Shown here one piece after another: positions 11,295 to 62,558 of a stretch of 64,000 nucleotides of DNA. Every line of letters starts with the position of its first letter. Position 1 is the stretch's first letter. The position numbers and the translations under genes were made by a program. Source of the DNA: Flavobacteriaceae bacterium PS02337 (lineage in GTDB: Bacteria > Bacteroidota > Bacteroidia > Flavobacteriales > Flavobacteriaceae); NCBI GenBank assembly GCA_029959285.1, contig JASCOE010000002.1, forward strand, positions 124,001 through 188,000, read 5' to 3'. The notes beneath the pieces are model-generated. The model was not told the DNA's origin. It saw nothing but the letters and a program-made list of their open reading frames with translations, and searched no databases.

Positions 11295-11302
11295 GTACAT
11301 TT
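11295..11302 (+). promoter_or_regulatory. -7 box for the outer-membrane channel-like gene
   Basis: TACATTTG on the plus strand matches TAnnTTTG, 38 bp upstream of the ATG at 11341. Confidence 0.55.
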
Positions 11303-11340
11303 GAAATGCGTTATCACTTTTTAATCCTATAAAGAAAATT

Positions 11341-12306
11341 ATGTTCAAAATTAAAAACTTACTTGCCCCGGTACTTTTTTTTATTCCACAACTGTTTTTT
11401 GCGCAATATACTGACGTTATTAATTCCAATCGACCAGGCGAAACTATGTCGGCTTACGGAGTTGGTAAATCAGTAATTCAAGCCGAACTTGGTGTCTATG
11501 GCATCAAAGAAAAACACGATTTACTAAATTACGATGCTAGCGGTTTTGGTACCGATTTCTCTCTTAGATATGGCGCTTTTTTAGAACAATTGGAGTTTGT
11601 GCTTGATGTACAATATCAAATGGAAAATTTTGATACGCCTTATACGAGTTATAAGAAAAACAATTTCAGACAAACTGTTCTTGGTGCTAAATATCTGGTT
11701 TATGATCCTTACAAAAATAAAAAAGAAGCAAACATTTACAGCTATAAAGCCAATCATAGCTTTAATTGGCGTGAATTAATTCCTGCCGTTTCTGTTTTTG
11801 CCGGAGCTAATTTTGTTGGTGCAGAGAATCCTTATTATTTTTCTCCAGACGGCGCAATTTCTCCTAAAATTTCCTTGATTACTCAGAACTTATTTGGAGG
11901 CGGAAAATGGGTTTTTGTAACTAATATTATTGCTGATTATATCGGAACTGATTATCCAAGTTACGGATATGTCTTAACTTTGACACACGGATTTAATGAA
12001 AAATGGTCTGGTTTTGTTGAAAATCAAGGCTATAAAAGCGATTTTTACAGCGATGCAATTGTTCGTGGTGGTGCGGCTTACCTTCTTTCTGCCAACATGC
12101 AGGTTGATGCTTCTATAAGTACAAATTTTAAAAACACACCATCTGTATTATACGGAGGAGTTGGAGTTTCATGGCGTTATGACGGTTGGTACAAAAATAA
12201 GCAAGCCGCAAATAAGGCGGATGAAAAAGCCAAAAAGAATACCGACAATGATAAGAACATAGACTATCAAGAAAAAGAAAGAAAACGAAAAGCAAAATAC
12301 GAATAA
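11341..12306 (+). CDS. Outer-membrane channel-like protein (phenol MetA-pathway/transporter family)
   Basis: 321 residues with a clear signal peptide (about 1-21, cleaved near LFFAQ-Y). The mature part is rich in alternating aromatic and polar residues typical of beta strands (DFSLRYGAFLEQLEFVLDVQ, then GYVLTLTHGFNEKWSGFVEN), matching the outer-membrane beta-barrel group often labelled 'transporter' or 'MetA-pathway of phenol degradation'. It begins DVINSNRPGETMSAYGVGKS, a conserved opening of that family. The last 45 residues are a Lys-rich charged tail (KNKQAANKADEKAKKNTDND), unusual for a barrel and perhaps periplasmic. It is divergent from the DUF4834 gene. Substrate unknown. Confidence 0.75.
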   Translation: MFKIKNLLAPVLFFIPQLFFAQYTDVINSNRPGETMSAYGVGKSVIQAELGVYGIKEKHDLLNYDASGFGTDFSLRYGAFLEQLEFVLDVQYQMENFDTPYTSYKKNNFRQTVLGAKYLVYDPYKNKKEANIYSYKANHSFNWRELIPAVSVFAGANFVGAENPYYFSPDGAISPKISLITQNLFGGGKWVFVTNIIADYIGTDYPSYGYVLTLTHGFNEKWSGFVENQGYKSDFYSDAIVRGGAAYLLSANMQVDASISTNFKNTPSVLYGGVGVSWRYDGWYKNKQAANKADEKAKKNTDNDKNIDYQEKERKRKAKYE

Positions 12307-12353
12307 TTTTAAATAACCAAACGCTCTAAAAAGAGACCCTCAATACCAGCTTA

Positions 12354-13472
12354 ATGATTACAATAAAAGAAGCCAAAAGCAAAAAAGAATTAACCGAATA
12401 CATTAAATTTCCTTTTTCTCTGTACAAAGACAGCCCGTATTGGGTTCCGCCAATTATTGCAGATGAATTAGAATCTTTTGATAAAACGAAAAATCCTGCT
12501 TTTGATAATGCTGAAGCTTATTTCTATTTGGCTTACAGAGACAATAAAATTGTTGGGCGTATCACAGCGATCATCAATTGGGCTGAAGTAAACAATCAGC
12601 ATAAGCGAAAAGTGCGTTTTGGTTGGTTTGATGTTATTGATGATGTTGAAGTTACAAAAGCACTTCTTGAAAAAGTATTCGAATTAGGAAGAAAACACAA
12701 TTTAGAGCATGCAGAAGGCCCAATGGGATTTTCGAATTTAGATAAAGTTGGCGTTTTAACAGAAGGATACGATCAAGTTGGAACCATGATTACATGGTAC
12801 AATCACCCATATTATGTAACGCATTTAGAGCAATTAGGATTTCAGGTTGAAAAACAATATATAGAAAGTATATTTCCTTTTTCGAATGTAAAACCTGAAT
12901 TCTTTTTGAAAGCGCAGGCTTTAATTAAAAAACGTTACGAGCTTAGATCGTTAACTTTTACAAAGACAAAAGACATTATGCCTCACGTAGACAAAATGTT
13001 TGATTTGTTTAATGAATCTTACGAAAAACTAGCATCATTTGTTGCTATTTCTGATGTTCAAAAAGAGTATTTTAAAAAGAAATATATCAGTTTTATCAAT
13101 CCAGAATATATTAAGTTCGTAGTTGATAAAGATGATAATTTAGTAGCATTTAGTATTGTAATGCCAAGTTTTACAGAGGCTTTGCAAAAAATTAGAGGAA
13201 AGTTATTCCCCTTTGGTTTTTTACAATTATTGAAAGCTAGAAAACATAGTAAAGATGTTGTTTTTTACCTTATCGGAGTTCATCCTGATTATCAAAATAA
13301 AGGTGTAACTGCTATTATTTTTGATGAATATTATAAAACATTTTCTGAAAAAGGAATTCAAAATTGTATTAGAACTCCAGAATTATTAGAAAATACTGCC
13401 ATTCATTTACTTTGGAAGAATTTTGATCCGAAAATTCATTGTCAGAGAAAAACGTATTTGAAGAATCTTTAG
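12354..13472 (+). CDS. GNAT-fold N-acetyltransferase-like protein
   Basis: 372 residues, soluble, with no signal peptide. The N-terminal part (ITIKEAKSKKELTEYIKFPF...DSPYWVPPII) and the duplicated acetyltransferase-like fold fit a Bacteroidota family sometimes labelled 'GTP cyclohydrolase' without good reason. The C-terminal half holds the acetyl-CoA binding signature region near 310 (YLIGVHPDYQNKGVTAIIFD, equivalent to motif A Q/RxxGxG/A). Substrate unknown. It lies 47 bp after the channel-like gene on the same strand and may be co-transcribed. The family call is firm; a specific reaction is not. Confidence 0.75.
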   Translation: MITIKEAKSKKELTEYIKFPFSLYKDSPYWVPPIIADELESFDKTKNPAFDNAEAYFYLAYRDNKIVGRITAIINWAEVNNQHKRKVRFGWFDVIDDVEVTKALLEKVFELGRKHNLEHAEGPMGFSNLDKVGVLTEGYDQVGTMITWYNHPYYVTHLEQLGFQVEKQYIESIFPFSNVKPEFFLKAQALIKKRYELRSLTFTKTKDIMPHVDKMFDLFNESYEKLASFVAISDVQKEYFKKKYISFINPEYIKFVVDKDDNLVAFSIVMPSFTEALQKIRGKLFPFGFLQLLKARKHSKDVVFYLIGVHPDYQNKGVTAIIFDEYYKTFSEKGIQNCIRTPELLENTAIHLLWKNFDPKIHCQRKTYLKNL

Positions 13473-13476
13473 TTTA

Positions 13477-13510
13477 GTTTTCAGTCGCAGTCTCAGTTTT
13501 CAGTTTTTTA
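13477..13510. repeat. Dispersed GTTTTCAGTCGCAG repeat, copy 1
   Basis: The 14-mer GTTTTCAGTCGCAG is followed by TCTCAGTTTTCAG. The identical 14-mer occurs at 36397-36410, and a one-mismatch copy lies at 62844-62857; all three are in gaps between genes. Confidence 0.6.
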
Positions 13511-13512
13511 CT

Positions 13513-14058
13513 ATGAAAAAGATTGGAGTAATACTTTTGATAATAATTTCATTTTCATTTGTAAAAGACGAAAGTGATCTTTTATATAAAAATTATGCTA
13601 AGGCACTATACCAAGGTGGTACTTTTCAATTTTTCTTAGTGATTAAGATTAAAAACTTAAATACGAATAAAGTTAGAGAGATATGTACGAAAGGTAACTT
13701 TTTGCAAGGTGCAATTCATCGTGAGTATAAAATTCCTTATACTGAAAAAGGATTACTTAAAGCATCTCAAATTGCTTTAAAAAACAAAAGAAGATATTTT
13801 GAATTTAAAAATGATAGTGCAATTGCAAATTTGGGAGTAAAATATTATTCAGTAAATGATTTGAAGAAATTAGAATCTAAAATTAACTTTAATCTACTTG
13901 CTGAAAAAATAAAGAAAAACAAAAAATGGCATTCTTATCTTGATGACAAAGACTTAACAATGTATGCACATGCTCTTTTTAACAGAGGAATTTTAACTGG
14001 AGAAAATAGTTGTATGGGTGGCACATTGATTTATATAGATCCTAGTACAAAATTTTAA
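13513..14058 (+). CDS. Hypothetical exported protein
   Basis: 181 residues with an N-terminal hydrophobic stretch (MKKIGVILLIIISFSFVKDE) that looks like a signal peptide. The rest is rich in Lys and Asn, with no membrane helix. A single Cys-Met-Gly-Gly motif stands near the C-terminus (ENSCMGGTLIY). No family recognised. It starts 41 bp after the GNAT gene, just after a dispersed repeat, and is closed by the terminator at 14073-14106. Confidence 0.65.
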   Translation: MKKIGVILLIIISFSFVKDESDLLYKNYAKALYQGGTFQFFLVIKIKNLNTNKVREICTKGNFLQGAIHREYKIPYTEKGLLKASQIALKNKRRYFEFKNDSAIANLGVKYYSVNDLKKLESKINFNLLAEKIKKNKKWHSYLDDKDLTMYAHALFNRGILTGENSCMGGTLIYIDPSTKF

Positions 14059-14072
14059 AATCTCAAAAATAA

Positions 14073-14106
14073 AAAAATCCATTCGCCCCCAAACGAATGG
14101 ATTTTT
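14073..14106. terminator. Terminator, first of a near-identical pair
   Basis: A 13-bp stem (AAAAATCCATTCG and complement) encloses CCCCCAAA and is flanked by A and T runs. It serves the plus-strand gene before it and the convergent minus-strand lipoprotein gene. The stem sequence is repeated at 14664-14698. Confidence 0.85.
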
Positions 14107-14125
14107 CATTAAATAAAAACTCTAT

Positions 14126-14614
14126 TTACTCTACTTTACAATCTACTTTTACTAAAGTATTTTTTTGATCAAATTTCAATTTAGATTTATCTTTAAACAT
14201 AACTTTATCATTTGATGTAACAACATCGCCGTATCCTTCAATAAAAGTTCCGTCTTTTTGCAGAAAAACAACTTCTCTTACTGATGAAACTCCTTCAGAA
14301 GAAAAAGTATAATCGGCAACTAAAGTATCGCCTTTCATGTTTCCAATCAATGTTCCTTCGTTTTTATCTTTTCCAACCAAATTGTAAATCAGTTTTCCAT
14401 TTACTTCTTGATGAGAATTGACATTGAAACTCATATCTATAATACTTCCGTTAGATTTCCAAGTATAGCATTGGTCTCCCGCAGGTTCTACTATTTCTGC
14501 CTCTTTTGGTGGACTTGGCGTAATTTGTACCGGCTCTGTTGTTGTGGTTTCTTTTTTGCAAGAAGCAAAAATTGACAACGCAAGTACAGCTGTTAGTGTT
14601 AGTACTTTTTTCAT
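14126..14614 (-). CDS. Lipoprotein of unknown function
   Basis: 162 residues. The signal peptide ends in a lipobox (SIFASC, Cys19) and is followed by a Lys/Glu/Thr/Pro linker. The folded part (about 50-162) starts CYTWKSNGSIIDMSFNV and has a beta-rich pattern with a GTLIGNMKGDTLVADYTF segment often seen in small Bacteroidota lipoproteins that resemble heat-shock or lipocalin-like domains. It probably sits in the outer membrane facing the periplasm. It is monocistronic and boxed in by two nearly identical terminators. Confidence 0.7.
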   Translation of the reverse strand: MKKVLTLTAVLALSIFASCKKETTTTEPVQITPSPPKEAEIVEPAGDQCYTWKSNGSIIDMSFNVNSHQEVNGKLIYNLVGKDKNEGTLIGNMKGDTLVADYTFSSEGVSSVREVVFLQKDGTFIEGYGDVVTSNDKVMFKDKSKLKFDQKNTLVKVDCKVE

Positions 14615-14663
14615 AATTCTTTATTTTTATTTTGTGATTTATGATATAAAGTTACCCTAAATA

Positions 14664-14698
14664 AAAAAAATCCATTCGCATAACGAATGGATTTTTTT
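14664..14698. terminator. Terminator, second of a near-identical pair
   Basis: A 15-bp stem with the core AAATCCATTCG and a 5-nt loop (CATAA), ending in a T run on the minus strand. It lies 39 bp after the stop of the alpha-oxoamine synthase gene. Confidence 0.85.
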
Positions 14699-14737
14699 AC
14701 ATAATTCCCACTTAGAGAATTTTATTTTAAAAGTCAA

Positions 14738-15997
14738 TTACGACACGTCAACAGTTGTACGCTCTGCAATTTCTTTATAAGTCCCGTTAACCAATTTCTC
14801 ACGAATTGCTTCGAAAGCCGTTAACGTTTCATCGATATCAGCTAAAGTATGAGAAGCCGTAGGAATCATTCTCAACAAGATAATTCCTTTTGGAATAACT
14901 GGATACACAACGATAGAAAGGAAAATACCGTAGTTTTCTCTTAAATCGTTTACCATTACCATTGCTTCAGGAATACTTCCTTCTAAGTAAACTGGTGTAA
15001 TACAAGTATTTGTATCTCCAATATTAAATCCTTTTTCTTTAAGACCACTTTGTAATGCGTTTACATTTTCCCAAAGTTTATCTTTAATTTCAGAAGATTT
15101 ACGTAATAATTCTAAACGTTTCAAAGAACCAATTGTTTGAATCATTGGTAATGCTTTTGCAAACATTTGAGAACGCAAATTGTATTTTAAATAATCAATA
15201 ACCGATTTATCTGCTGCTACAAAAGCACCGATATTAGCCATAGATTTTGCAAAAGTAGAGAAGTAAACATCGATATCTGCTTGAACTCCCTGCTCCTCAC
15301 CTGCTCCAGCACCCGTTTTACCAAGTGTACCAAAACCGTGAGCGTCATCTACTAATAAACGGAAATTGTATTTTTGTTTTAAAGCAACAATTTCTTTTAA
15401 TTTTCCTTGTTGACCGCGCATTCCGAAAACACCTTCAGTGATAAATAAAATACCACCGCCAGTTTCCTCAGCCATTTTAGTAGCACGCTGCAAGTTTTTC
15501 TCCATACTTTCCAAATCATTGTGTTTGTATGTGAAACGTTTACCCATGTGCAAACGAACACCATCAATGATACAAGCATGTGAATCTACATCATAAACAA
15601 TAATATCATTTTTAGTAACCAAAGCGTCAATAATAGACACCATTCCTTGGTAACCAAAATTCAATAAATAAGCAGATTCTTTCATTACGAAATCAGCCAA
15701 TTCATTTTCTAATTGTTCGTGGTACGTAGTGTGTCCAGACATCATACGAGCTCCCATCGGATAAGCCGCACCAAATTGAATTGCTGCATCTGTATCTGCC
15801 TGACGAACTTCTGGATGATTTGCTAAACCTAAATAATCATTTAAACTCCAGTTTAAAATATTTTTTCCGTGAAAAGTCATTCTAGGACCCAACTCTCCTT
15901 CTAACTTTGGGAAAACATAATAACCTTCTGCTTGAGAAGCCCATTTTCCTAAAGGTCCTTTATTGTCCTGAATTCTTTCGAATAAATCTTTTACCAT
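14738..15997 (-). CDS. Alpha-oxoamine synthase (PLP-dependent; serine palmitoyltransferase / capnine synthase type)
   Basis: 419 residues, the usual family length. These enzymes join an amino acid to an acyl-CoA or acyl-ACP with loss of CO2. Visible: His140 that stacks on PLP (DSHACIIDG), Asp218 and His220 (VDDAHGFGTLG), and the PLP lysine Lys251 in STFAKSMANIGAF. The TFxKS motif is closer to serine palmitoyltransferase (TFSKS) than to glycine C-acetyltransferase (TLGKA). In Flavobacterium relatives this branch includes the cysteate acyltransferase that begins sulfonolipid (capnine) synthesis, so a sphingolipid or sulfonolipid role is likely. Other family members, such as 2-amino-3-ketobutyrate CoA ligase, are less likely. 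Its -7 box is at 16035-16042. Confidence 0.8.
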   Translation of the reverse strand: MVKDLFERIQDNKGPLGKWASQAEGYYVFPKLEGELGPRMTFHGKNILNWSLNDYLGLANHPEVRQADTDAAIQFGAAYPMGARMMSGHTTYHEQLENELADFVMKESAYLLNFGYQGMVSIIDALVTKNDIIVYDVDSHACIIDGVRLHMGKRFTYKHNDLESMEKNLQRATKMAEETGGGILFITEGVFGMRGQQGKLKEIVALKQKYNFRLLVDDAHGFGTLGKTGAGAGEEQGVQADIDVYFSTFAKSMANIGAFVAADKSVIDYLKYNLRSQMFAKALPMIQTIGSLKRLELLRKSSEIKDKLWENVNALQSGLKEKGFNIGDTNTCITPVYLEGSIPEAMVMVNDLRENYGIFLSIVVYPVIPKGIILLRMIPTASHTLADIDETLTAFEAIREKLVNGTYKEIAERTTVDVS

Positions 15998-16034
15998 AAT
16001 ATATTGTAGTAATTTTTTTTACTTAATCAGCGAG

Positions 16035-16042
16035 CAAAAATA
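16035..16042 (-). promoter_or_regulatory. -7 box for the alpha-oxoamine synthase gene
   Basis: TATTTTTG on the minus strand, 37 bp upstream of the ATG at 15997. Confidence 0.55.
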
Positions 16043-16189
16043 ATCATTATTCTTCTAAAATTCAGACACTCATTTATTTTTCTTAAAAAATATTCTACAT
16101 AAAAATTTTAACAAGATTTAACTTTAGTTCATTTTTAAAAAAATCTCCAAAATTACGCTCCAATTTTCTTCAAACATGATTTTTATCAT

Positions 16190-16215
16190 AATAAAAGATA
16201 AAATAGTCTTTTATT
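16190..16215. promoter_or_regulatory. 26-bp dyad operator before nirK (proposed Rrf2/NsrR-like site)
   Basis: Half-sites AATAAAAGATA and AGTCTTTTATT are separated by 4 nt; each differs by one base from the perfect dyad found before the NO reductase gene. The right half overlaps the -7 box at 16212-16219, so binding would block RNA polymerase. The ATG is 38 bp downstream. Confidence 0.65.
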
Positions 16216-16219
16216 TTTG
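16212..16219 (+). promoter_or_regulatory. -7 box for nirK
   Basis: TATTTTTG on the plus strand, 34 bp upstream of the nirK ATG and overlapping the proposed operator by four bases. Confidence 0.55.
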
Positions 16220-16253
16220 ATCTATAAATATATGAAAACAAAACCAAGTAATT

Positions 16254-17699
16254 ATGAAAAGGAATAACAAAATTTGGACAAAAATGAACATGCTGTTGTG
16301 TTCGTTTTTTATACTTCTCTTATTAGGCAGTTGCAAAAAAGAAGAAGCTAAAAATTATGCAGACATTATGACTGAAGGCGAAATGGAAGCCGAGCTTACT
16401 TCACCGCCTCATGTTCCAAAACCAGTTGGAAACAGAACGGCCATGAAATTGAAACTTAACATGGAAATTAAAGAGCAAGAAGGCACAATGACTGATGGCG
16501 TAAAATATACGTATTGGACATTTGGAGGTTCTGTTCCGGGAAGTTTTATCAGAACTCGTGTTGGTGATGAAGTTGAATTTCACTTAAAAAATCATCCTGA
16601 TAATAAATTACCACATAATATTGATTTACATGCTGTAACAGGTCCGGGAGGTGGAGCAACTTCTTCTCTTGTGGCTCCTGGACACGAAAAAGTATTCAGT
16701 TTTAAAGTTATCAATCCTGGATTGTATGTATATCATTGTGCTACAGCTCCTGTGGGAATGCACATTGCGAACGGTATGTATGGTTTGATTTTGGTTGAAC
16801 CTGAAGGCGGACTTCCTCCTGTTGATAAAGAATACTACGTTATGCAAGGAGATTTTTACACTCAAGGTGAATATGGAGCAAAAGGTTTACAGCCATTTGA
16901 TATGAATAAAGCGGTAAAAGAAACACCTGATTATGTTGTTTTTAATGGAAAAGTTGGATCTCTTACAAACGGAAATGAATTGAATGCAAAAGTGGGCGAA
17001 ACCGTTCGTTTGTTTGTTGGGAATGGCGGACCAAATCTAGTTTCTTCTTTCCACGTCATCGGAGAAATATTTGATAGTGTTCATATTGAAGGTGGAAGCA
17101 CAATCAATAAAAATGTGCAAACTACTTTAATTCCTGCTGGTGGTGCTGCAATTGTAGATTTTAAAGTCGAAACTCCTGGAACTTTCATTTTGGTTGACCA
17201 CTCTATTTTCAGAGCTTTTAACAAAGGTGCTTTGGGAATGCTGAAAGTAGAAGGAAAAGAAAACAAAAACATTTATTCTGGAACAATTCAAGAAGGCATT
17301 TATTTGCCTGAAGGAGGAACAATTCAGAAAATGCCTGGAACTTCTGCAGTTAAAACTGAAACTCCAAAAAGAACTATTGCCGAAAAAGTTAAAATTGGTA
17401 AAGAAATTTTCGGAACGACTTGTTTTGCGTGTCACCAATCTGAAGGACAAGGAATTCCGAATACTTTTCCTCCTTTGGCAAAATCAGATTATTTGAATGC
17501 CGATTCGAAACGTGCCATTAAAACAATTTTACACGGTTTAACTGGAGAAGTAACTGTTAACGGCAAAAAATATAACAATGTTATGCCTGCACAAAACTTA
17601 TCTGATGATGAAATCGCAAATGTGCTGACCTACATTTACAGCAGTTGGGGCAATAACAAAACAGAAATAACGCCAGAAATGGTAAAAACGCTAAGATAA
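16254..17699 (+). CDS. nirK: Copper nitrite reductase with fused C-terminal cytochrome c domain
   Basis: 481 residues; reduces nitrite to NO, acting as an envelope lipoprotein (lipobox GSC, Cys27). Two cupredoxin domains span about 60-340. Type 1 copper ligands: His121, Cys162, His170, Met175. Type 2 ligands: His126, His161, His316; catalytic Asp124 and His267 are present. Residues about 375-470 form a class I cytochrome c with CFACH (390-394) and an axial Met in NNVMPAQ (Met444). Plain NirK is about 340-380 residues, so the haem domain is an in-line electron donor, as in known NirK-cytochrome fusions. It heads an operon with the NirV-like and SCO genes (gaps of 16 bp each) under the proposed operator at 16190-16215. 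Confidence 0.95.
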
Positions 17700-17715
17700 C
17701 AGCAAAACTAGCAGC

Positions 17716-18498
17716 ATGAAAAAATTAATTTTCATTCTTTTAATTGTCTTTTTCTCTGTGTTTACTAGTGTCATGAATGCACAGGAAACAGAAATGGTTT
17801 TCATAAAAGAGGGATCTTTTGTCCCTCTTTATGGAGCCGTTTCTAAAAAACCTGTCGAAGTAAAATCATTCTACATGGACGTTTATCCTGTAACAAATAG
17901 AAAGTTTTTAGAATTTGTCAAAAAAAATCCTTCTTACCAAAAATCAAAAATTAAAGGAATTTTTGCCGATAAAAGTTATCTCTCTTATTGGAAAACTGAT
18001 TTTGATTTTGGAAATGCAAAACCAAATTCTCCAGTCACAGGCATTTCTTGGTTTGCTGCTAAAAAATATTGCGAATGCGAAGGAAAACGTTTAGCAACGA
18101 TGGATGAATGGGAATATGTGGCAATGGCTGACACTAAAAAAATTGACGCTAGAACCAAAAAAGAATTCAACCAATACATTTTGTCTTGGTATGAGAAATC
18201 TAGAACATACGAAAATGAAATTGGCAAAACGTTCAAAAATTATTGGGGCGTTTTCGATATGCACGGTTTAGTTTGGGAATGGACTTCTGATTTTAACAGC
18301 ATCTTTTTATCGGGTGAATCCAGAAAAGATAAAAGCACCGATAAAAATCTCTTCTGCGGAAGCGGATCTGTAAACGCAACAGATTTAATGGATTATGCTG
18401 CTTTTATGCGATACGCTTTCCGCGGAAGCTTAAAAGCACAATATTCTACGCGAAATCTTGGCTTTAGATGCGCCAGTACAACAAAACCAAAAATCTAA
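17716..18498 (+). CDS. nirV: NirV-like protein (formylglycine-generating-enzyme fold, exported)
   Basis: 260 residues with a signal peptide (about 1-22, ending MNAQ). The rest is an FGE-sulfatase (SUMF1-type) fold: DVYPVTNRKFLEFV near 56, PVTGISWFAAKKYC near 112, GKRLATMDEWEYVA, DMHGLVWEWTSDF near 200, and RNLGFRCAS at the end. The cysteine pair that makes true FGE catalytic is not seen; the equivalent stretch reads FRGSLKAQYSTRNLGFRC. NirV proteins with this fold lie next to nirK in other denitrifiers and are thought to help the reductase, by an unknown mechanism. The spacing of 16 bp from nirK supports the same role. Confidence is good for the fold, moderate for the name. Confidence 0.8.
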   Translation: MKKLIFILLIVFFSVFTSVMNAQETEMVFIKEGSFVPLYGAVSKKPVEVKSFYMDVYPVTNRKFLEFVKKNPSYQKSKIKGIFADKSYLSYWKTDFDFGNAKPNSPVTGISWFAAKKYCECEGKRLATMDEWEYVAMADTKKIDARTKKEFNQYILSWYEKSRTYENEIGKTFKNYWGVFDMHGLVWEWTSDFNSIFLSGESRKDKSTDKNLFCGSGSVNATDLMDYAAFMRYAFRGSLKAQYSTRNLGFRCASTTKPKI

Positions 18499-18514
18499 TT
18501 TAAATTAGTTTACA

Positions 18515-19111
18515 ATGAAAAAAATAGCAATTGTTTATATCCTTTTATTTACTCTTTACAGTTGTAAAGAATCTGATAAAAAAGAAGTTAAAGCTGAATC
18601 AAAAAAAGAAATCAGCGATTTATCGATTTATAATCTTCCTTCTAAATGGACAAATCAAAACGGAAAAGATATTGAATTAAAAAGTCTAAGAGGCAATGTT
18701 TTAGTAATGGTGATGATTTACACGAGCTGTAAATCGGCTTGTCCAAGATTGGTTGCCGATATGCGCGATATTGAATCAAAATTGGAGAAAAACACGAAAC
18801 AACATGTAAAATTAATTTTAGTCAGTATAGATCCAAAAACGGATACGCCGGAAAGATTAAAATCATTCGCCATTGAAAATAAAATGAATCAAGATCCGTG
18901 GATTTTCCTTCGTTCAACAGAAGAAAATACAAGAGAATTTGCAGCAGTTTTGGCAGTGAATTATAAACAAATTTCTCCGATAGATTTTTCGCATTCTAAC
19001 ATTATTAGCGTTTTTAATCCAGAAGGAGAATTAGTTTTTCAGCAGGAAGGTTTGGGTGTAAATAATGAAAAAACAATAGAAACAATAAATTTGGAAGCAG
19101 GAAAGATATAG
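18515..19111 (+). CDS. SCO1/SenC-type copper chaperone, lipoprotein
   Basis: 198 residues. A lipobox (TLYSC, Cys17) is followed by a thioredoxin-like domain with the copper-binding CxxxC (Cys72-KSA-Cys76 in YTSCKSACP) and the third ligand His160 (DFSHSNI). SCO proteins deliver copper to copper enzymes such as cytochrome oxidase CuA; here the position as third gene after nirK suggests copper loading of NirK or electron transfer to its sites. It sits in the periplasm anchored to a membrane. All expected ligands are present. No clear terminator follows; a repeat-rich gap begins instead. Confidence 0.9.
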   Translation: MKKIAIVYILLFTLYSCKESDKKEVKAESKKEISDLSIYNLPSKWTNQNGKDIELKSLRGNVLVMVMIYTSCKSACPRLVADMRDIESKLEKNTKQHVKLILVSIDPKTDTPERLKSFAIENKMNQDPWIFLRSTEENTREFAAVLAVNYKQISPIDFSHSNIISVFNPEGELVFQQEGLGVNNEKTIETINLEAGKI

Positions 19112-52700: not shown

Positions 52701-54432
<1,732 letters not shown>

Positions 54433-54585: not shown

Positions 54586-55911
54586 TCATTTTAGTTTGTA
54601 TCTTAAATTATCAAAGAAACGTTCAATTAGTCTTCTTTCTTCAGTAACAATTTCAGCTGTTCCGCTTGCTTCAGCGTGAAAATTTAATTCTACACCATAA
54701 TTTGTTTTTAATCCAAAAGGCAAAATAACATCTACAAGATAGGAGTTAATTTTATTTTGATTGTCAGATAATGTCTGCTGATTTGTTACTAATGAAATTC
54801 TTTTTACTTTCCCCTTTATTGAACCATATTCATTATAAGGATAATTGTTAAGTTTAATAATAACAGCTTGTCCAACTTTTACTTTTCCAGCACCATTTTC
54901 AGGCAAATTGACCTGACCAATCAATTTATTATTATCGGGCATAATTTTAAACAACTCTTGTCCAGATTGGATATAATCATTGTTTTTGACGAAATTTAAA
55001 AAGTCAACTTTCCCTTCAATCGGAGAAACAAAAATATAAGTACGTTCCCATTTTTTTAAGGAATCAATCAAATCATAATAGCTATTATACAAATTAACAA
55101 CGAGTTCTCTTTCTTTTTGAGCTTTTTCAATTGCAATAATCTGAGCTTTATTTTGAGTTTCATTTATTTGATAATTTGTATTACTAATTTCTTTATCAAT
55201 AGCATTGTAATCAAGAATGCTATTTGCTTTTGCAATTATGGAATGCTCAATATCTGCTTTAGAAGTGACCTCTTTTTCAAATAAAATTGAATCTTTTTTA
55301 AAAAGACTCTGTGAGATTTTATATTTGATTTCTTGATTCTTAAAATCACTTTTTAATTGATGAAATTTACTTTTTTGTAATTCGAAAAGTTTTTGATTTA
55401 TTTCTTTTTGAAATTCATACGGCTGTTGAACTGAATAGTCTAAGTATTGATATAGAGAGTTTAAAAAATTAAAATATTTATTATTTATATCTCCCAATGA
55501 TAAATTTTCAGGAAATAAATGACGATGTGCTTTATAATTGATTTTATGAATATTTGTTTCATAAAGCATTTTATCTAATAGTTGAATATCTTTCAAACTT
55601 GCTTCATTTTTTATATAAGCTAGATAAGTACCTTCTTTTACTTTTGTTCCAGATTTATTTTCTATTATAATTATATTTCCAGTAGTTGTAGCTATCAGTT
55701 TAACCGGAGGCTGCTGTGAATTAACAACAATTTGTCCTGATAAAATTGAAGGATATTTTATCAGCCATCCAAATAGAAGTAAAAGTAAAACCAGTCCAAT
55801 AACAATTCCGCTTATTGTCACACCAAATTTAGTTGGCATTCTTTCAATTATTGAAGCAACTTCTTCTGTTCTATTTTCATTTAATGTTTTATGAAATCCT
55901 TTTTTAGCCAT
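54586..55911 (-). CDS. HlyD-family membrane fusion protein of the export cassette
   Basis: 441 residues. A cytoplasmic N-terminus of about 30 residues, one membrane helix (about 31-52, FGVTISGIVIGLVLLLLLFG), a lipoyl/barrel-sandwich half (IATTTGNIIIIENKSGTKVK near 90), a long coiled-coil region (about 110-290) rich in Lys/Glu/Gln, the second half-lipoyl (IFVSPIEGKVDFLNFVKNND) and a beta-barrel domain with VKVGQAVIIKLNNYP. It should bridge the inner-membrane ABC transporter to an outer-membrane channel. Its start overlaps the transporter gene by 8 bp, proof of a shared transcript. No TolC-like gene lies in the window. Confidence 0.92.
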   Translation of the reverse strand: MAKKGFHKTLNENRTEEVASIIERMPTKFGVTISGIVIGLVLLLLLFGWLIKYPSILSGQIVVNSQQPPVKLIATTTGNIIIIENKSGTKVKEGTYLAYIKNEASLKDIQLLDKMLYETNIHKINYKAHRHLFPENLSLGDINNKYFNFLNSLYQYLDYSVQQPYEFQKEINQKLFELQKSKFHQLKSDFKNQEIKYKISQSLFKKDSILFEKEVTSKADIEHSIIAKANSILDYNAIDKEISNTNYQINETQNKAQIIAIEKAQKERELVVNLYNSYYDLIDSLKKWERTYIFVSPIEGKVDFLNFVKNNDYIQSGQELFKIMPDNNKLIGQVNLPENGAGKVKVGQAVIIKLNNYPYNEYGSIKGKVKRISLVTNQQTLSDNQNKINSYLVDVILPFGLKTNYGVELNFHAEASGTAEIVTEERRLIERFFDNLRYKLK

Positions 55912-58090
55912 TTACAGTATCTCCTATTTGTGTTTTAACTAATTGATAATAATGTCCGTTCTCTCTGGACATCAACATATCGTGATTACCAATTTCCGTG
56001 ATGTAGCCATTTTTCAAAACTATTATTTGATCTGCTTTCCGAATAGTACTTAATCTATGCGCAACAACTATCACGGTTTTGTTTTTAAATATTTCTTCTA
56101 ATGCCATAACAATTTTTTGTTCATTTATAACATCTAAAGAATTGGTCGCTTCATCAAAAAATAAATAATCCGGATCTTTATACAAAGCTCTTGCAATTAA
56201 AACTCGTTGCTTTTGCCCACCACTTAAACCTCTTCCGCTTTCCCCCATCATGGTTTGATAACCTTTAGGCATTGCTTCAATTTCAGAAGCTATGTTTGCA
56301 ACAGTTACTGCTTTTTTCAATCTTTCATAATCTATATTTTCATCGTCCAAAACAATATTATTTTGAATAGTATCGCTAAATATTTTGCCATCCTGCATTA
56401 CTGCACCACAGCTTTCCCTCCATTGTTTCAAATTAATATTCTGAATATTTAGATTTCCCATTGACAGTTCGCCATGAGTAGGTTTATATAATCTTAATAT
56501 TAATTTTAATAAAGTAGTTTTTCCGCTTCCGCTATCCCCAACAATTGCAGTAACCTTCCCTTCAGGAATTGCAAGAGAAATATTACTCAAAATATAATCA
56601 CCATTACGACTATACTGAAAACTCACATTTCTTAAGAGTAGACTTTTATCTTCAGGTAATTTTATATTATTATTAATATCATTTTCTTCTTCATTCTCCA
56701 GTTCATGAATTTCATTAAGTCTCAAAAAACTAATTTTTGCATATTGTCCAGAATGAATAAAAGAAATGAATTGCATTACTGGACCATTTAGCATTCCTAT
56801 TATGAATTGAGTAGATATCATTACACCAAAAGTAATATCACCTTTAATTACAGATTTTGCGCAATAAAAAGTAATAATCAAATTGGTCAATTGATTAATG
56901 AATTGTGCTCCCAAATTTTGAGCATTATTAATTCTTAATATTTTTTGATCAATTTTGAATAACTGAACTTGTAAAGCTTCCCACTTCCATCTTTTCTGTT
57001 TTTCATAGTTATTAATTTTAATATCTTGAATGCTTCCAATTGTTTCTACCCAATAACTTTGATTTTTAGTATGCACATCAAAATATTCCCAATCAAGTTT
57101 TTTCCTAAATCTCAGAAAAACGAGTACCCAGCTAATAAATAATATACTTCCTACAATGTAAATCAAGCATAAAATTGGACTGTAAATCAAAAGTATAATT
57201 CCAAAAATAAAAAAGGTTAATACCGAAAAAAGAAAATTAAGGGAGTTATTCATTATAAAATCCCGAATACGCTCGTGATCTTGTGCGCGTTGCAAAATAT
57301 CTCCAATTAATTTTTTTTCGAAAAAGGTTATTGGCAATTTCATTAGTTTGATCAGGTAATCTGAAATTAATGAAATATTAATTCTAGATGTAAGATGAAG
57401 TAAAACCCAATCTCTAAGCATATTACTCAATAAAATACTGACTATAATGGTTATGTTGGCTATTAAAACCAGATCGATAAAATCCAAATCATTTGTCTGG
57501 ATTCCAACATCAATAACAGCTTTTGAAATAAAAGGCAAAAATGCCTGCAAAACTGTTACTATTAGCATTACTACAAATAAGTTAACAAAACTCTTTTTAT
57601 AGGGCGTAAAGTAACCTAAGAAATTTTCTAATGTTTTGCGTCTTTCAATTTTATCATTTATTGATCGCTGTTTAAAATCAGCCATTGGTTCTATAGCTAA
57701 AACTGCACCTGTATTAGATTCTTTTAGCCAGCCGTTTTTAAAATTTTCATGAGAGTATTTTAATAAGCCCTTAGCAGGATCTGAAACAAATACTTGCTTA
57801 TTACTTATTTTATAAACCACTACAAAATGATTATCCTGCCAATGTACTATACAGGGCAATGAAATGATTTTTAAAGTATCAAAATCTATTTTAATACTTT
57901 TGGTACGCAAACTTATTTTTTCGCATGCATCGCTAATATCTAAAAAACTTACACCTTCTCTTGTAATACCACATAAATCACGTAAAAAAGGCAGGCTATA
58001 GAACCTGCCATAAAATTTAGCAATAATTTTTATACAAGATGGACCGCAGTCTTTTGCATCGAGTTGAAATTCGTGAGGAAAATTGAACAT
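55904..58090 (-). CDS. Peptidase-containing ABC transporter (C39 peptidase, bacteriocin-type exporter)
   Basis: 728 residues in three parts. Residues 1-130: C39 cysteine peptidase with Gln9, Cys15 (DAKDCGPSC), His88 (NHFVVVY) and Asp104 (VSDPAKG), all needed to cut leaders after Gly-Gly. Residues about 165-450: six-helix ABC membrane domain. Residues about 480-725: ATPase with Walker A GDSGSGKTT, signature GLSGGQKQR, Walker B YLFFDEATN and the switch His in VAHRLSTI. The substrate is almost surely the double-glycine-leader lipase three genes upstream. All catalytic residues are intact, so the system looks functional. Confidence 0.95.
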   Translation of the reverse strand: MFNFPHEFQLDAKDCGPSCIKIIAKFYGRFYSLPFLRDLCGITREGVSFLDISDACEKISLRTKSIKIDFDTLKIISLPCIVHWQDNHFVVVYKISNKQVFVSDPAKGLLKYSHENFKNGWLKESNTGAVLAIEPMADFKQRSINDKIERRKTLENFLGYFTPYKKSFVNLFVVMLIVTVLQAFLPFISKAVIDVGIQTNDLDFIDLVLIANITIIVSILLSNMLRDWVLLHLTSRINISLISDYLIKLMKLPITFFEKKLIGDILQRAQDHERIRDFIMNNSLNFLFSVLTFFIFGIILLIYSPILCLIYIVGSILFISWVLVFLRFRKKLDWEYFDVHTKNQSYWVETIGSIQDIKINNYEKQKRWKWEALQVQLFKIDQKILRINNAQNLGAQFINQLTNLIITFYCAKSVIKGDITFGVMISTQFIIGMLNGPVMQFISFIHSGQYAKISFLRLNEIHELENEEENDINNNIKLPEDKSLLLRNVSFQYSRNGDYILSNISLAIPEGKVTAIVGDSGSGKTTLLKLILRLYKPTHGELSMGNLNIQNINLKQWRESCGAVMQDGKIFSDTIQNNIVLDDENIDYERLKKAVTVANIASEIEAMPKGYQTMMGESGRGLSGGQKQRVLIARALYKDPDYLFFDEATNSLDVINEQKIVMALEEIFKNKTVIVVAHRLSTIRKADQIIVLKNGYITEIGNHDMLMSRENGHYYQLVKTQIGDTVNG

Positions 58091-58111
58091 TTGTTTTTTT
58101 TTAGATTAGAA

Positions 58112-58618
58112 TTATTTTATTCTTCTTAACAATCTATAATAAACAACTTTTCCAGTTTGAGTGCCGTCATCTAATGTCATCATTAAGTCACCTTTTTTAG
58201 CTATTCCTTCTATGTCTTTAGCAAAAATATTTGTCCCCCATATTTCTAAATAATTTTTAACACTAGGATTATCAATTATTACAAAAGAACCGCTAACCTT
58301 ATAATTAGGTATTTTATTTTTTTGAAAAGCCTCAAAAAGAACATGTAATTCTTGCTTTGAATATTCTTTATTTACAGAGCTCATCATTGAACTTACTTTT
58401 CCATCTTTTGTAAATTGAAACCACTGATAAGGTTGCGGCCATGGATTTACTTTATTAACTGCAAGATTTGGTATGGAAATCATTTTCCAATACCCTAAAA
58501 GTTCCTTTGCTGATGCTGGCCCTCCAGCTGCTGATTTTTTGTTAGTATCTTGAGAAATAGCACTAATTGAAATTAGTAATATGGAAAATAGAAAGAAGCT
58601 TTTTTTAATTTGTGACAT
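58112..58618 (-). CDS. Exported lipocalin-like protein, candidate immunity or accessory factor
   Basis: 168 residues. Signal peptide 1-22 (ending ISAIS-Q). A short Gly/Ala/Ser linker, then about 130 residues beginning ELLGYWKMISIPN, which resembles the opening G-x-W strand of lipocalin-like barrels, and ending GKVVYYRLLRRIK. There is no lipobox, so it should be free in the periplasm or outer leaflet. Its ATG lies 14 bp inside the preceding lipoprotein gene and its stop is 21 bp before the transporter. Role inferred from position only. Confidence 0.65.
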   Translation of the reverse strand: MSQIKKSFFLFSILLISISAISQDTNKKSAAGGPASAKELLGYWKMISIPNLAVNKVNPWPQPYQWFQFTKDGKVSSMMSSVNKEYSKQELHVLFEAFQKNKIPNYKVSGSFVIIDNPSVKNYLEIWGTNIFAKDIEGIAKKGDLMMTLDDGTQTGKVVYYRLLRRIK

Positions 58619-59216
58619 CGTTATACATATTTATTTTTTTACTTATTAATTCAAAAATCTCTCCTTCACTTGTATCGTAACGTATTAAACCTTCTTTTTT
58701 ATCCCAATAAAAAGATTTTATATAGATTAGTGAAACATTTTTTGCATTAACACCATCTTCAAATTGATATACGTCATGATAGCTTTTATCTGTTGTAGAT
58801 ATTCTAAAATTCTCTAATTTTGAATCTTCATTTTTAAGATTTCCCTGTTGATATAATCCAAAAGCATAAAAACCAGGAAAACATTTTTTATCTACTTGAT
58901 CTTTACAAACAGATATTCCTACATCACAATTTCCTTCACTTTTACAATTTTTAAGTTTAAGAATAATATACATTATATGAGGTTGAATTGGTCCAATACC
59001 ATAATAATTACAATTCTCATTTCCATGACCTTCCTTTTTTTCTGAAACAACTAGAGTGTCTAAATTTCCTTCATTACTTTTAAAAATCATAGTTTGTCCA
59101 TTTTCATAAACTGAAAACCATTTTTTTTCTTCATCGGTTAAATTTGTTTCAACACATTTACCACAAGAATTTAAAAACATCAAAAATGAAAATAAAATAA
59201 TTATACTCTTTTTCAT
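58605..59216 (-). CDS. Lipoprotein next to the lipase, candidate immunity protein
   Basis: 203 residues. Signal peptide with lipobox FLNSC (Cys18). The mature part has seven further cysteines, including CGKC directly at the lipid site, ENCNYYGIG, NCKSEGNCDVGISVCK and KKCFP, suggesting several disulfides in a periplasmic domain of mixed beta form. No family recognised. The ATG is 1 bp after the lipase stop, the position where immunity genes often sit next to toxin genes, and a periplasm-facing lipoprotein would meet an exported lipase on its way back. Confidence 0.65.
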   Translation of the reverse strand: MKKSIIILFSFLMFLNSCGKCVETNLTDEEKKWFSVYENGQTMIFKSNEGNLDTLVVSEKKEGHGNENCNYYGIGPIQPHIMYIILKLKNCKSEGNCDVGISVCKDQVDKKCFPGFYAFGLYQQGNLKNEDSKLENFRISTTDKSYHDVYQFEDGVNAKNVSLIYIKSFYWDKKEGLIRYDTSEGEIFELISKKINMYNDVTN

Positions 59217-59217
59217 C

Positions 59218-60570
59218 TTACCTTGGATTTGGAACTACTTTTAAAGCTGCTATCATCGCATCAATACTATGCCCTCCTGAACTAGATCCGTTTTGATTAA
59301 CAATGTGCTTTTGTCCACCTGCTGTATTTAGACCAGGTGTAACCGTTTGTACTATATTTAAAGGATCATTATTCATAATATAAGAATGAGTATCTGACAC
59401 AAAACCAATTCCTAAAATTATTGCTGTTTGATAACTTAATCCAGCTGCGTTAAAAGTTGTAGCACTTTCTCCAGTGGATCTAGCATTAGCTTCCGCCAAA
59501 CCTCCTCCTAAAGAATGTCCCGCAAACGATAATTGATCCCCAAATAGTACTTTTAAAACCTTTGCATTTTCTACAGATTGATAATATTGTAAAGAAATGC
59601 CTTGAGTTTGTAATACATCCGCAGCATAGTCTGCTATTTCAGCCTCCGTTCCTGCTGTAACATAACAGTATTCCATTTTTCCATTTGTACCCATTTTTTC
59701 ATATAACTGTGATTTAAATCCTGATTCTGGGTCATTATATAAAACACCTGCAACTGGTTTTGAAACTGTCCAATTCCCAAAATCCTTGGGGTCTTTAATT
59801 TCATCACCATAAACTGCTTTAGACATAACAGCAGCTTCTAAGGGAGATGGTTTTGCAGCACTGCCATGTATAGGCATTATATACCACGAAGCATTATCTG
59901 TTCCACTACTTCCGCCACTACTTGTTCCTCCACTACTTACATTATTTATAAAAAGCGGTAAATTATTTATTATTTCACCTTGTAATATTGTACTTGGACC
60001 TTTGTAATTATTTTGTACTGTCACATTATTTAAAACTGTTCCTGGTAATTGAAGATTATATTGTTGATTGTTTATTTGTTGCCCTGTAGTAGTTAATTCA
60101 TTATTAATAAAATTAAAAAGTTGGTTATTAGTTATACTTCCATGATTAGCATCTACAAATTGAAAAAAGCGAATAATAGTAAGTGAATCTGTGGTTTGCT
60201 TACCACTATTGTAAGTATCGTACCATCCGCCACCATAACCATTGTTTAAGGTTGATGAATTCAAATTATTTGTACCAGTACTTGAACTAGTGCCCCCATA
60301 ATAAGGTGAACTAGGATAGCTACTTTCTCCAGCACCCGTAACAGAACCACTTCCATAAACACCCCCACCTACAGCATTTGTACCTCCAAATCCTCCGTAA
60401 TTACTTCCTGTAAAACTTGTATCGAATGGATTACCATTAAGCGCAGTTCCATTACCACCACCAGAACCAGTAGTTCCACCTCCACCAGAGCCTCCAATAA
60501 TTTCTCTCATTCCGTCTTTTTCTAACATACCGACGATGTCAGAAAATTTAATCTTTTTAATTGCTTTCAT
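59218..60570 (-). CDS. Lipase-domain protein with double-glycine leader (polymorphic-toxin-like)
   Basis: 450 residues in four parts. Residues 1-27: a leader ending Gly26-Gly27 with Leu16 at -12, Met21 at -7 and Ile24 at -4, the classic pattern cut by C39 peptidases. Residues 28-125: a Gly/Ser/Asn/Tyr-rich low-complexity linker. Residues 126-240: an Asn/Gln-rich segment of unknown fold. Residues 240-450: an alpha/beta-hydrolase with nucleophile Ser353 in FAGHSLGGGLA, followed by ATTFNAAGL, the candidate acid Asp402 (MNNDPLN) and the candidate base His434 (GGHSIDAM). The GHSLGGGL...TFNAAGL...H-D layout is that of phospholipase domains in polymorphic toxins. No usual signal peptide. Predicted cargo of the transporter in this operon. 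Confidence 0.85.
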   Translation of the reverse strand: MKAIKKIKFSDIVGMLEKDGMREIIGGSGGGGTTGSGGGNGTALNGNPFDTSFTGSNYGGFGGTNAVGGGVYGSGSVTGAGESSYPSSPYYGGTSSSTGTNNLNSSTLNNGYGGGWYDTYNSGKQTTDSLTIIRFFQFVDANHGSITNNQLFNFINNELTTTGQQINNQQYNLQLPGTVLNNVTVQNNYKGPSTILQGEIINNLPLFINNVSSGGTSSGGSSGTDNASWYIMPIHGSAAKPSPLEAAVMSKAVYGDEIKDPKDFGNWTVSKPVAGVLYNDPESGFKSQLYEKMGTNGKMEYCYVTAGTEAEIADYAADVLQTQGISLQYYQSVENAKVLKVLFGDQLSFAGHSLGGGLAEANARSTGESATTFNAAGLSYQTAIILGIGFVSDTHSYIMNNDPLNIVQTVTPGLNTAGGQKHIVNQNGSSSGGHSIDAMIAALKVVPNPR

Positions 60571-60647
60571 AAGTTTATTTTATATAGTTAAATACTTCAA
60601 AAATTATTTTAATTAACACAAATAATATTGTTAAAATTTAAAAATGA

Positions 60648-62225
60648 TTATAATTTTATTAATTTCAATGATTTTATATACAGTCCCAGTCTAATTCTTC
60701 CAAATATTAGCTCTTCAAACTCAGTAAAATTTTTATTTAGATCATTAGTTTCAAAATACTGCTTAAGTTCATTAAAAAGCTCAAGAATAGTTTTTTTGCT
60801 TTTTAAAATATCTAAAATGACCAAATCTAAAGAATCAACGTAAGCCATCGAAAATCTATCCTGATCACATTCGGGAATTATTAATGTGTGAAAATTTGTT
60901 TCTGCTTCTTCTAGAATTACAATTTCATTTTCTTTTTTAACTTTTAGCTTTTCAATAAACGAACTCCAATTATATTTACTTTCTACAATTTTATAGTCGC
61001 AATCACTTATTATTATTTTTTTGTAAATAGCTTCAGCATCTTTAAATAAATCTTGCATATAAGAACTTGCCTTACAATCACGTGCGTATAAATAGTCTTT
61101 TGAAAGCAAAACAAAATCTTTTTTGACTACTTTCTTTATTCTAGAATTAAATATTTCAAAATCAATAAATTGACTCTTACTTAAATTATACCCTTTCAAT
61201 TCTTTTTTCAAGTCTCGATTAAAATCAAAACGTAACGATGTAATTGATTCCCTCTCAATTTTTATTTTTTCATCAACTAAATTTTTATAGCGTCTAAACA
61301 AAACCTCTTTATTAGAGTTTTCAAGACTGTAATAATCTTTAAAAAGTGACAGCTTATTTTTTTTGAATAATTCAATTATTTGATAGTAGTATTTGGGATA
61401 ATCAAGTCTCAGTCTATTTGCCATTTGCATACAAACAAAATCATTTCGCTTATAGCTTCCCAAGAGATGTAGATAATGCTTTTCATAAGGTATTTTTCCA
61501 AAATCATCAAACCCTTTATATTGATTATCTCCAATTGTCTCAGACAAAAGAACATTCACTGTTTTATTGTGCTTCTTAACTAAACAATAAAATAGATATT
61601 GTTCAAAAAATATATTAAAATTAGAAACATTTATTCTAGAAAAATTTAAAATATTTTTACCCACAAAATCAAGAGCCTTTTCAGTATATTCTTTAAAGAA
61701 AGAAATATTATTTCCTCCAAATATTCCCGCATTATATGCTAAAATTGGATTTTTAGAATTTCTTTCTTTAATAATTTCGTCTGGGAAGTAATTTAATGAA
61801 GACTCCAATGAAACCATTATATTTTCGTAATAATCTGTTGCGGACTCCATATTCTGAGCAATTAAATCTCCTTTGAGGAGAGAATCTTCAAATTTTTTCC
61901 AAATAAAAACATCTCCATCAACATGTAAAAAAGGTTTTTCTTGTTGTGAATAAGCCGAAATTTTAGGCAAAGCCCAAAGCTGTGGATGATAAATATTTAA
62001 GGAATCAAGATTACATACTACATCATTATAGGGTAGCTCTAAAGTATCGATTAGCATTTTTGCTGAAACACTATCACTATAAAGAATTAATTCTGGATAA
62101 TATTTTTTAAGCTGTAAGGAACTTAAAGCCCAAGACATTAAATTATATTCAGGAGAAAGCCAGCCTGCATTAGAGGTTAACAAGTTTGATTTATTACATG
62201 CCCATGCACTTTGAATTATCCTCAT
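60648..62225 (-). CDS. DUF6734-like glycosyltransferase-like protein with PqqD-like C-terminus
   Basis: 525 residues, cytoplasmic. The first 300 residues resemble a DUF6734/GT-A-like fold: an opening alpha/beta part (MRIIQSAWACNKSNLLTSNA) and the acidic motif HVDGDVFIW (Asp103, Asp105) like the DxD metal site of sugar transferases, then NAGIFGGNN. The last 70 residues (SMAYVDSLDLVILDILKSKK, TILELFNELKQYFE, FEELIFGRIRLGLYI) follow the helix pattern of PqqD-type leader-binding winged helices. Read together: an enzyme recruited to the leader of the next gene's product. Both reads are by eye and unproven. It is first in the operon, 77 bp before the lipase gene. AT-rich throughout. Confidence 0.6.
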   Translation of the reverse strand: MRIIQSAWACNKSNLLTSNAGWLSPEYNLMSWALSSLQLKKYYPELILYSDSVSAKMLIDTLELPYNDVVCNLDSLNIYHPQLWALPKISAYSQQEKPFLHVDGDVFIWKKFEDSLLKGDLIAQNMESATDYYENIMVSLESSLNYFPDEIIKERNSKNPILAYNAGIFGGNNISFFKEYTEKALDFVGKNILNFSRINVSNFNIFFEQYLFYCLVKKHNKTVNVLLSETIGDNQYKGFDDFGKIPYEKHYLHLLGSYKRNDFVCMQMANRLRLDYPKYYYQIIELFKKNKLSLFKDYYSLENSNKEVLFRRYKNLVDEKIKIERESITSLRFDFNRDLKKELKGYNLSKSQFIDFEIFNSRIKKVVKKDFVLLSKDYLYARDCKASSYMQDLFKDAEAIYKKIIISDCDYKIVESKYNWSSFIEKLKVKKENEIVILEEAETNFHTLIIPECDQDRFSMAYVDSLDLVILDILKSKKTILELFNELKQYFETNDLNKNFTEFEELIFGRIRLGLYIKSLKLIKL

Positions 62226-62327: not shown

Positions 62328-62558
62328 TTATGGTTTAGGATATTCCTTCTTAATATTTCGGATCAGCTCTTCTAAACCATTCAATTTCAATTCATAGATT
62401 AATTGTAATTGCTGCCCTAATTCTCCTTTTGGAAATCCTTTATTGTGATACCAAACGACGTAATATTCAGGAAGATTAATTAAATAGCGTCCTTCGTATT
62501 TCCCGAAAGGCATTTTGGTGTGCGCTAATTTTATGAGAAGTTTTTTGTCTTGTTCCAT
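62328..62558 (-). CDS. DUF3820 protein
   Basis: 76 residues, soluble. The sequence TKMPFGKYEGRYLINLPEYY followed by WYHNKGFPKGELGQQLQLIY is the characteristic DUF3820 pattern, a small exonuclease-associated or 'quorum-sensing regulated' family of unknown action. Its own -7 box is at 62622-62629. A short inverted repeat lies in the leader. It is unrelated in function, as far as can be seen, to the export cassette just downstream. Confidence 0.85.
   Translation of the reverse strand: MEQDKKLLIKLAHTKMPFGKYEGRYLINLPEYYVVWYHNKGFPKGELGQQLQLIYELKLNGLEELIRNIKKEYPKP

Follow-up and report, generated by a model that had tools for sequence, protein, structure and literature searches.

Polymorphic toxin systems, as laid out in the accessible text of Zhang et al. 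2012 (PMC3482391), combine a constant N-terminal trafficking region with a variable C-terminal toxin and an adjacent partner, and exchange their cassettes; Tox-MPTase2 is among the toxin domains, grouped there with TcdB/TcaC. Bacteriocin exporters of the peptidase-containing ATP-binding cassette (ABC) transporter type (C39/PCAT; LahT; PMC6363468, in its accessible part) fuse a C39 peptidase to the ABC transporter and act with a double-glycine (GG) leader. Archaeal islands that hold a C39 peptidase beside several GG-leader proteins, with duplicated genes, have a proposed bacteriocin-like or quorum-sensing role (PMC6393860, likewise in part). Traits of all three recur in a six-gene operon of Flavobacteriaceae bacterium PS02337, whose genome comprises 5.7 Mb in 56 contigs. 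The operon lies within positions 124,001 to 188,000 of contig JASCOE010000002.1, a stretch of 64,000 nucleotides that we call the window. We think it quite likely that this locus is a polymorphic antibacterial toxin system with a bacteriocin-type (C39) type I exporter. A constant cargo front, a swapped toxin and partner, extra partner homologs, homology to effectors, and intact C39 residues can all be read from the sequences.

Using the window's transporter as query with a threshold of E ≤ 1e-230, we found the transporter in 12 of 399 genus genomes, own included. In 11 of the 399, again counting our own, it is 90%–100% identical and occupies one site, with a small conserved gene on one side and a CTP-synthase-like gene on the other; for G199 and G452 (G-numbers denote genomes, L-numbers loci) the site context is visible on two contig ends each. 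The remaining transporter, of G398 (67%–70% related), lies elsewhere, and a decayed twelfth island at the common site, in G418, escapes the transporter search. The two border genes are neighbors in all eight of a hand-picked set of island-free genomes, where intervening open reading frames (ORFs) are small, up to 138 amino acids (aa). By this comparison the operon is an island inserted between two housekeeping genes, and we regard it as more than a chance arrangement because other genomes have it at the same site. Genomes of the same genus include Flavobacterium sp. UGB4466 (G452), Flavobacterium sp. ACN6 (G418), F. gawalongense (G447), F. chungbukense (G015), F. panici (G343), and F. cupreum (G394).

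What the island carries as cargo varies. Across the 12 same-site islands, the C-terminal domain is a lipase in three, a muramidase (phage lysozyme) in seven, Tox-MPTase2 in one, and a hydrophobic domain without a family in one. An earlier note on the window had placed the lipase at the center of the operon and named, as contrary evidence, homologous operons that keep the transporter without it; nine of the 12 same-site islands lack the lipase. There, the leader and N-terminal region are kept but bear other domains; the real unit therefore appears to be a locus of polymorphic toxins. This strengthens the idea of export while withdrawing the lipase from its center. The features of the island and its borders, in window coordinates, are as follows.

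62328..62558, minus strand: small conserved 76-aa gene, the island's upstream border, adjoining the CTP-synthase-like gene in 8/8 island-free genomes; we take its name to be DUF3820
60648..62225, minus strand: DUF6734 protein of 525 aa, a putative glycosyltransferase-like enzyme that would modify the cargo, with the PF20508 match, a DGD stretch, and a C-terminal tail
59218..60570, minus strand: toxin cargo, 450 aa, made up of GG leader, constant region, and lipase
60490..60570, minus strand: double-glycine leader of 27 residues, predicted cut after IIGG, near-invariant among homologous cargos
59896..60489, minus strand: constant region, rich in Gly/Ser/Thr/Asn at first, with a conserved stretch after it to about NNYKGPS
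59218..59895, minus strand: exchangeable C-terminal lipase domain with GHSLGGG nucleophile motif and Ser353, based on the PDB 7ubz_B match and the homology break
58605..59216, minus strand: lipoprotein of 203 aa, probably the immunity protein cognate to the lipase, based on gene order and the G265 homologs
58112..58618, minus strand: secreted 168-aa protein, orphan immunity or accessory candidate, with a 72% homolog in G474
55904..58090, minus strand: C39-peptidase ABC transporter, 728 aa, based on Pfam domains and conserved C39 residues
54586..55911, minus strand: HlyD-type adaptor, 441 aa, with 76%–88% identity to adaptors of other same-site islands
52701..54359, minus strand: CTP-synthase-like gene, the island's downstream border, presumably pyrG

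The six same-strand ORFs of the operon run on the minus strand from 62225 down to 54586, and the intergenic gaps of 77, 1, −14, 21, and −8 bp given in the earlier note agree with the ORF coordinates. Lipase islands are our own, G394, and G015 (frame interrupted). Muramidases were recognized by Pfam Phage_lysozyme (E 1.1e-13 to 1.7e-08) in G057, G343, G265, G474, and G199; those of G418, which has lost its end, and of G452, which is in two pieces, were recognized only by BLAST against the G057 cargo. G436 bears Tox-MPTase2 (E 2.4e-24) on an ORF in frame with the leader ORF, with one stop between them, and the hydrophobic cargo domain of G313 has no family match. The common front spans the first ∼225 residues; it matches our cargo at 59%–69% in four rows and at 44% in G436, and is more diverged in G265, G474, G199, and G313. 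At the DNA level, homology between our island and G343 covers 62669–59978, is followed by a gap, and restarts at 58123 into the transporter and adaptor; against G057 it ends at 59987 and restarts at 58102. Judged from these alignments, the break inside the cargo gene is a cassette swap. Trees were built from DNA because the transporter protein tree was poorly resolved. In the transporter plus adaptor tree, muramidase-bearing G057 and lipase-bearing G015 are sisters (support 100/100), and the lipase label needs three changes over nine labeled rows (shuffled mean 2.7).

A cargo array lies beside the related C39 transporter of G398 (L167, G398:C33:10000-29000, positions 7792-18705). Three of its ORFs bear another GG leader, two more lack a leader but open with the same post-leader stretch, and secreted or membrane proteins are interspersed among them; Pfam matches in the array are weak and one ORF contains a run of N. 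G313 and G398 have in common a hydrophobic domain (E 3e-15) and a small membrane partner (E 3e-07).

The genes behind the cargo change with it. The lipoprotein follows the lipase in 3/3 lipase islands, and the muramidase island G265 holds three tandem homologs of it (72%, 55%, and 47%). The DNA match to the first of these extends ∼75 bases into the 3′ end of the lipase gene, which is the kind of remnant that a displaced lipase cassette would leave. The proposal of the earlier note that the lipoprotein protects the producer thus gains ground: The 203-aa protein is probably the cognate immunity protein of the lipase and is the best-supported protection candidate. Between our island and G394 its gene shows 0.29 nonsynonymous (dN) and 0.98 synonymous (dS) substitutions per site. 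Behind the muramidases we found an LprI-like membrane-anchored family (G057, G418, G265) or an unrelated lipoprotein family (G343, G474, G452), and in G199 a fragment of the unrelated lipoprotein family followed by an LprI-like member, so that one or the other partner family is present in 7/7. Judged by eye, the partners viewed start with a segment of signal-peptide, lipobox-like, or membrane type, and such envelope-directed N-termini suggest that the toxins act outside the cytoplasm.

The secreted 168-aa protein fared less well as a protection protein. It is not lipase-specific, having a 72% homolog in the muramidase island G474, although an orphan immunity or accessory role can be kept for it; its former label, lipocalin-like, is unsupported, as neither Pfam nor NCBIfam gave a family match. 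A TPR-like secreted protein is present in five islands (G394, G436, G265, G474, G313). Among five proteins compared with PHROGs the sole match was the G057 muramidase (endolysin), and among eight run through PADLOC it was the transporter, via its ATPase part.

These partners also bear on a more peaceful reading, in which the operon would serve nutrition by exporting a digestive lipase through its own exporter with the small proteins as chaperones or foldases. Flavobacteria secrete many hydrolases, and lipases often require helper proteins, both of which would suit such a system. However, the same front bears a muramidase or Tox-MPTase2 in relatives, partners change with the domain, extra partner homologs pile up in G265, and the closest solved relative of the lipase is a type VI secretion system (T6SS) effector. 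We therefore hold the nutritional exoenzyme to be improbable.

The toxin of our own island was assigned to the lipases by the earlier note, and the class stands through a profile match and NCBIfam, although Pfam gives no match. The NCBIfam model SA1320 hits at 5e-07, far under its cut-off. A profile (A6) built from the C-termini of the three lipases and run against the PDB returned seven chains at E up to 10, led at E 7.5e-08 (81 profile positions) by the T6SS lipase effector 7ubz_B, with the runner-up at E 1.2. In a plasmid collection the cargo matched 14 records, each with ≤41% query coverage and all below 60% identity: two PAAR-domain proteins (Sphingomonas), one XVIPCD protein (X. sacchari), six Mbeg1-like proteins, and five others. 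PAAR marks T6SS effectors and XVIPCD marks effectors of the type IV secretion system (T4SS). The examined PAAR and XVIPCD lipase genes on plasmids each adjoin ankyrin-repeat genes (L222, L223). Because these genes adjoin ankyrin genes and the solved Tli partner is an ankyrin lipoprotein, the lipase domain is, as far as these comparisons reach, common to effector-type proteins while the partner type differs. An antibacterial role for the lipase is thus supported by the solved effector and the effector-type homologs, with the proviso that the lipase is not the constant cargo. A T6SS Tle effector with T6SS delivery found no support: A Pfam search for a PAAR-like part in the cargo gave none, and the partner has no ankyrin match.

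The export genes were correctly named in the earlier note. The transporter matches PF03412 (E 1.7e-33), PF00664 (1e-29), and PF00005 (8.7e-31), and the adaptor matches HlyD_3 (E 2e-12) and TIGR01843 (8.1e-32, though under that model's cut-off). Residues C15, H88, and D104 of the C39 domain, which we take to be its catalytic residues, are kept in 13/13 aligned transporters (our own and 12 others). The double-glycine leader proposed for the lipase is borne out, as conservation among related cargos peaks at MKAIKKIKFSDIVGMLEKDGMREIIGG. The note had also expected a TolC-like channel from elsewhere; there are 44 OEP domain matches outside the window, none tied to the system, and by this count the absence of such a channel from the window need be no obstacle.

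Membership of the leader in TIGR04149, a family of radical SAM (rSAM)-modified precursors of ribosomally synthesized and post-translationally modified peptides (RiPPs), was tried and failed: The match is weak, 13.9 bits against a curated cut-off of 25 bits, and of 10 related proteins only three match at all (16.6–20.1 bits). Run on 286 genomes of the order, the model hit 63 times, in 29 of them, and every hit falls in an open frame of 48–116 aa. By that measure a long cargo is out of the ordinary for a TIGR04149-type leader; since our own cargo escapes this search, other long cargos may escape it too.

Short frames of this kind would suit a transporter devoted to a small peptide, with the leader-bearing enzyme leaving by a T6SS, by the type IX secretion system (T9SS), or by lysis. 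T6SS- and T4SS-type proteins are among the relatives of the lipase, G447 has a related DUF6734 beside a 99-aa GG precursor and another C39 transporter, and the accessible text of PMC7073777 proposes the T9SS as the export route of the TANFOR toxins of Bacteroidetes. Against this, no further GG precursor was seen in our own operon, no part of the cargo is better conserved than the leader, and a leader-bearing cargo keeps its place beside this transporter type at the site. A separate small-peptide substrate is accordingly very unlikely in our estimate, and export of the cargo itself remains our preferred reading. Elsewhere in the same genome (L035, C11:852000-870000, positions 5409-13161) there is a second C39 transporter with HlyD. 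On the opposite strand lie six short (45–47 aa) GG-motif ORFs; besides these, L035 contains two further short GG ORFs and a protein of VKOR type with an additional weak C39-like match.

The first gene of the operon, called a glycosyltransferase-like protein in the earlier note, actually encodes a DUF6734 protein (PF20508, E 8.4e-111). Its invariant DGD stretch hints at the older label, but a comparison with the PDB gave nothing meaningful and hence no structural relative. The DGD stretch and the C-terminal tail are conserved. The tail was tried as a PqqD-like RiPP recognition element (RRE), but no sequence support emerged: None of 11 tails matched PqqD/RRE in Pfam or the PDB. PF20508 occurs in 18 of 199 relatives (one of 42 genera) and in nine of 295 class genomes (eight of 155 genera). 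Within the islands, DUF6734 is present in eight of 12 (split in G418), DUF6625 is present in G313, G474, and G394 (by Pfam) and in G199 (by BLAST), and G265 has neither. Modification of the cargo by DUF6734 is plausible on this pattern, and cargo modification may be common without being universal.

Genes around DUF6734 encode short peptides with GG leaders, accompanied by C39 transporters and VKOR proteins, and an Emticicia plasmid has DUF6734 with annotated lantibiotic dehydratase and VKOR genes. In L042, L043, L044, and L046, DUF6734 and a C39 transporter adjoin large proteins, which presumably resemble lantibiotic dehydratases and cyclases. In L099 (7823-13416) a 652-aa variant of DUF6734 is flanked by a short GG ORF on one side and, on the other, by a C39 transporter that is more distant (31%) and comes with an adaptor. 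An extracellular contractile injection system (eCIS) locus with tape-measure and eCIS_core proteins has two adjacent short DUF6734 proteins (L053, 5931-15374; E 2.9e-21 and 2.2e-24), and L054 is similar in layout. A literature search, with preprints and most subscription journals outside its reach, found no paper naming DUF6734.

We can speculate that two weapon traditions have merged in Bacteroidota. Polymorphic enzyme toxins would be handled like RiPP bacteriocins, their linker decorated with sugar, while still in the cytoplasm, by a DUF6734 or DUF6625 enzyme dedicated to the task, and the decorated enzyme then trimmed and exported whole by the C39 transporter. On this view weapon modification would be the general role of DUF6734, given its relatives in short-peptide RiPP-like clusters and in an eCIS locus. 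We hold this to be possible rather than probable.

For the toxin system as a whole, we infer secretion, cleavage, killing, immunity, glycosylation, and a channel as steps of the following kind. The cargo would be synthesized with a 27-residue GG leader in front of a constant region rich in Gly/Ser/Thr/Asn, and the toxin at its C-terminus would be exchangeable; here that toxin is a lipase, apparently akin to the phospholipase effectors of T6SSs. Before export, the cargo may be glycosylated by DUF6734, or by DUF6625 in some islands. The C39 domain would cleave after IIGG, and the ABC transporter, the HlyD adaptor, and a shared TolC-like channel would move the protein outside, where the toxin is predicted to hit the envelope of a competitor, with the producer shielded by the periplasm-facing lipoprotein. 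Toxin and protection genes would be swapped jointly at the fixed site while leader, transporter, and adaptor remain. The type I–like route for an antibacterial lipase proposed in the earlier note survives through the GG leader, C39, HlyD, and effector kinship, except that the lipase is one of several warheads.

Several observations weigh against this reading. Export of a 420-residue enzyme by C39 is without precedent in the literature examined, and the proposal offers no route for the toxins across the target outer membrane. The 7ubz_B match is confined to the nucleophile region. Profiles of the lipoprotein and of the LprI-like family matched no solved structure in the PDB, and the LprI matches in two scanned proteins (E 0.002 and 0.0045) are under the cut-off. 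The border-gene tree needs two lipase-label changes and joins our genome and G015, both with lipase, as weak sisters (89/88), and therefore part of the exchange pattern could reflect transporter recombination or descent. Finally, cargo frames are interrupted in four of 12 islands (G015, G436, G418, G452) and that of G199 is split over contig ends, and therefore several loci may be dead or misassembled.

The interrupted frames would also fit a decaying or cargo-damaged island with no present function, as would G418, where DUF6734 is split and the transporter–adaptor ORF is fused. That locus (L089, 5353-10152) shows a split DUF6734 gene, a muramidase cargo whose end is lost, and a transporter start fused to the adaptor ORF. 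On the other hand, all six frames are open in the window, and dN is well below dS for both the lipase domain (own–G394, 0.115 vs. 1.03) and the transporter (own–G057, 0.030 vs. 1.07). Decay of our own island is thus most unlikely, and a working polymorphic toxin locus remains the preferred explanation.

How does this locus compare with described systems? Our literature search, which left preprints and most subscription journals out of reach, found no paper recognizable as an account of a C39/GG-leader polymorphic toxin. TANFOR toxins (PMC7073777) are likewise Bacteroidetes toxins with swapped C-termini but, in the accessible part of that work, have another N-terminal domain, mostly a Sec signal, proposed T9SS export, and DNase toxins. 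The Enterobacter cloacae Tle–Tli pair (PMC11470151; PDB 7ubz) offers a related lipase domain with a lipoprotein partner; according to the accessible text its delivery is by T6SS and Tli is an ankyrin-repeat protein, whereas our lipoprotein matches no solved structure. The islands of PMC6393860 are archaeal, and a toxin domain, a partner, and a cassette swap are not described in the accessible sections. As for a glycocin-like product, the locus has DUF6734 with its DGD stretch and no structural relative by sequence, and both domains of unknown function, DUF6734 and DUF6625, gain a concrete hypothesis.

The closest fit is with the polymorphic toxins. One constant front serves four C-terminal types over 12 islands, a partner with predicted immunity function directly follows the toxin and changes with it, and recombination and orphan cassettes are evident in the cargo-gene break, the G265 homologs, and the leaderless cassettes of G398. 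With a fixed site, exchangeable cassettes, and identified partners, the system is directly testable. The route differs: The type I route in the accessible text of PMC3482391 is that of RTX toxins, with the GG-leader/C39 route not mentioned there, and our locus, if read correctly, would add a new delivery class for polymorphic toxins. Likewise, where LahT-type exporters handle peptide substrates in the accessible part of PMC6363468, the precursor here is a 450-aa enzyme, which would widen the cargo range of C39 exporters from peptides to enzymes of >400 residues.

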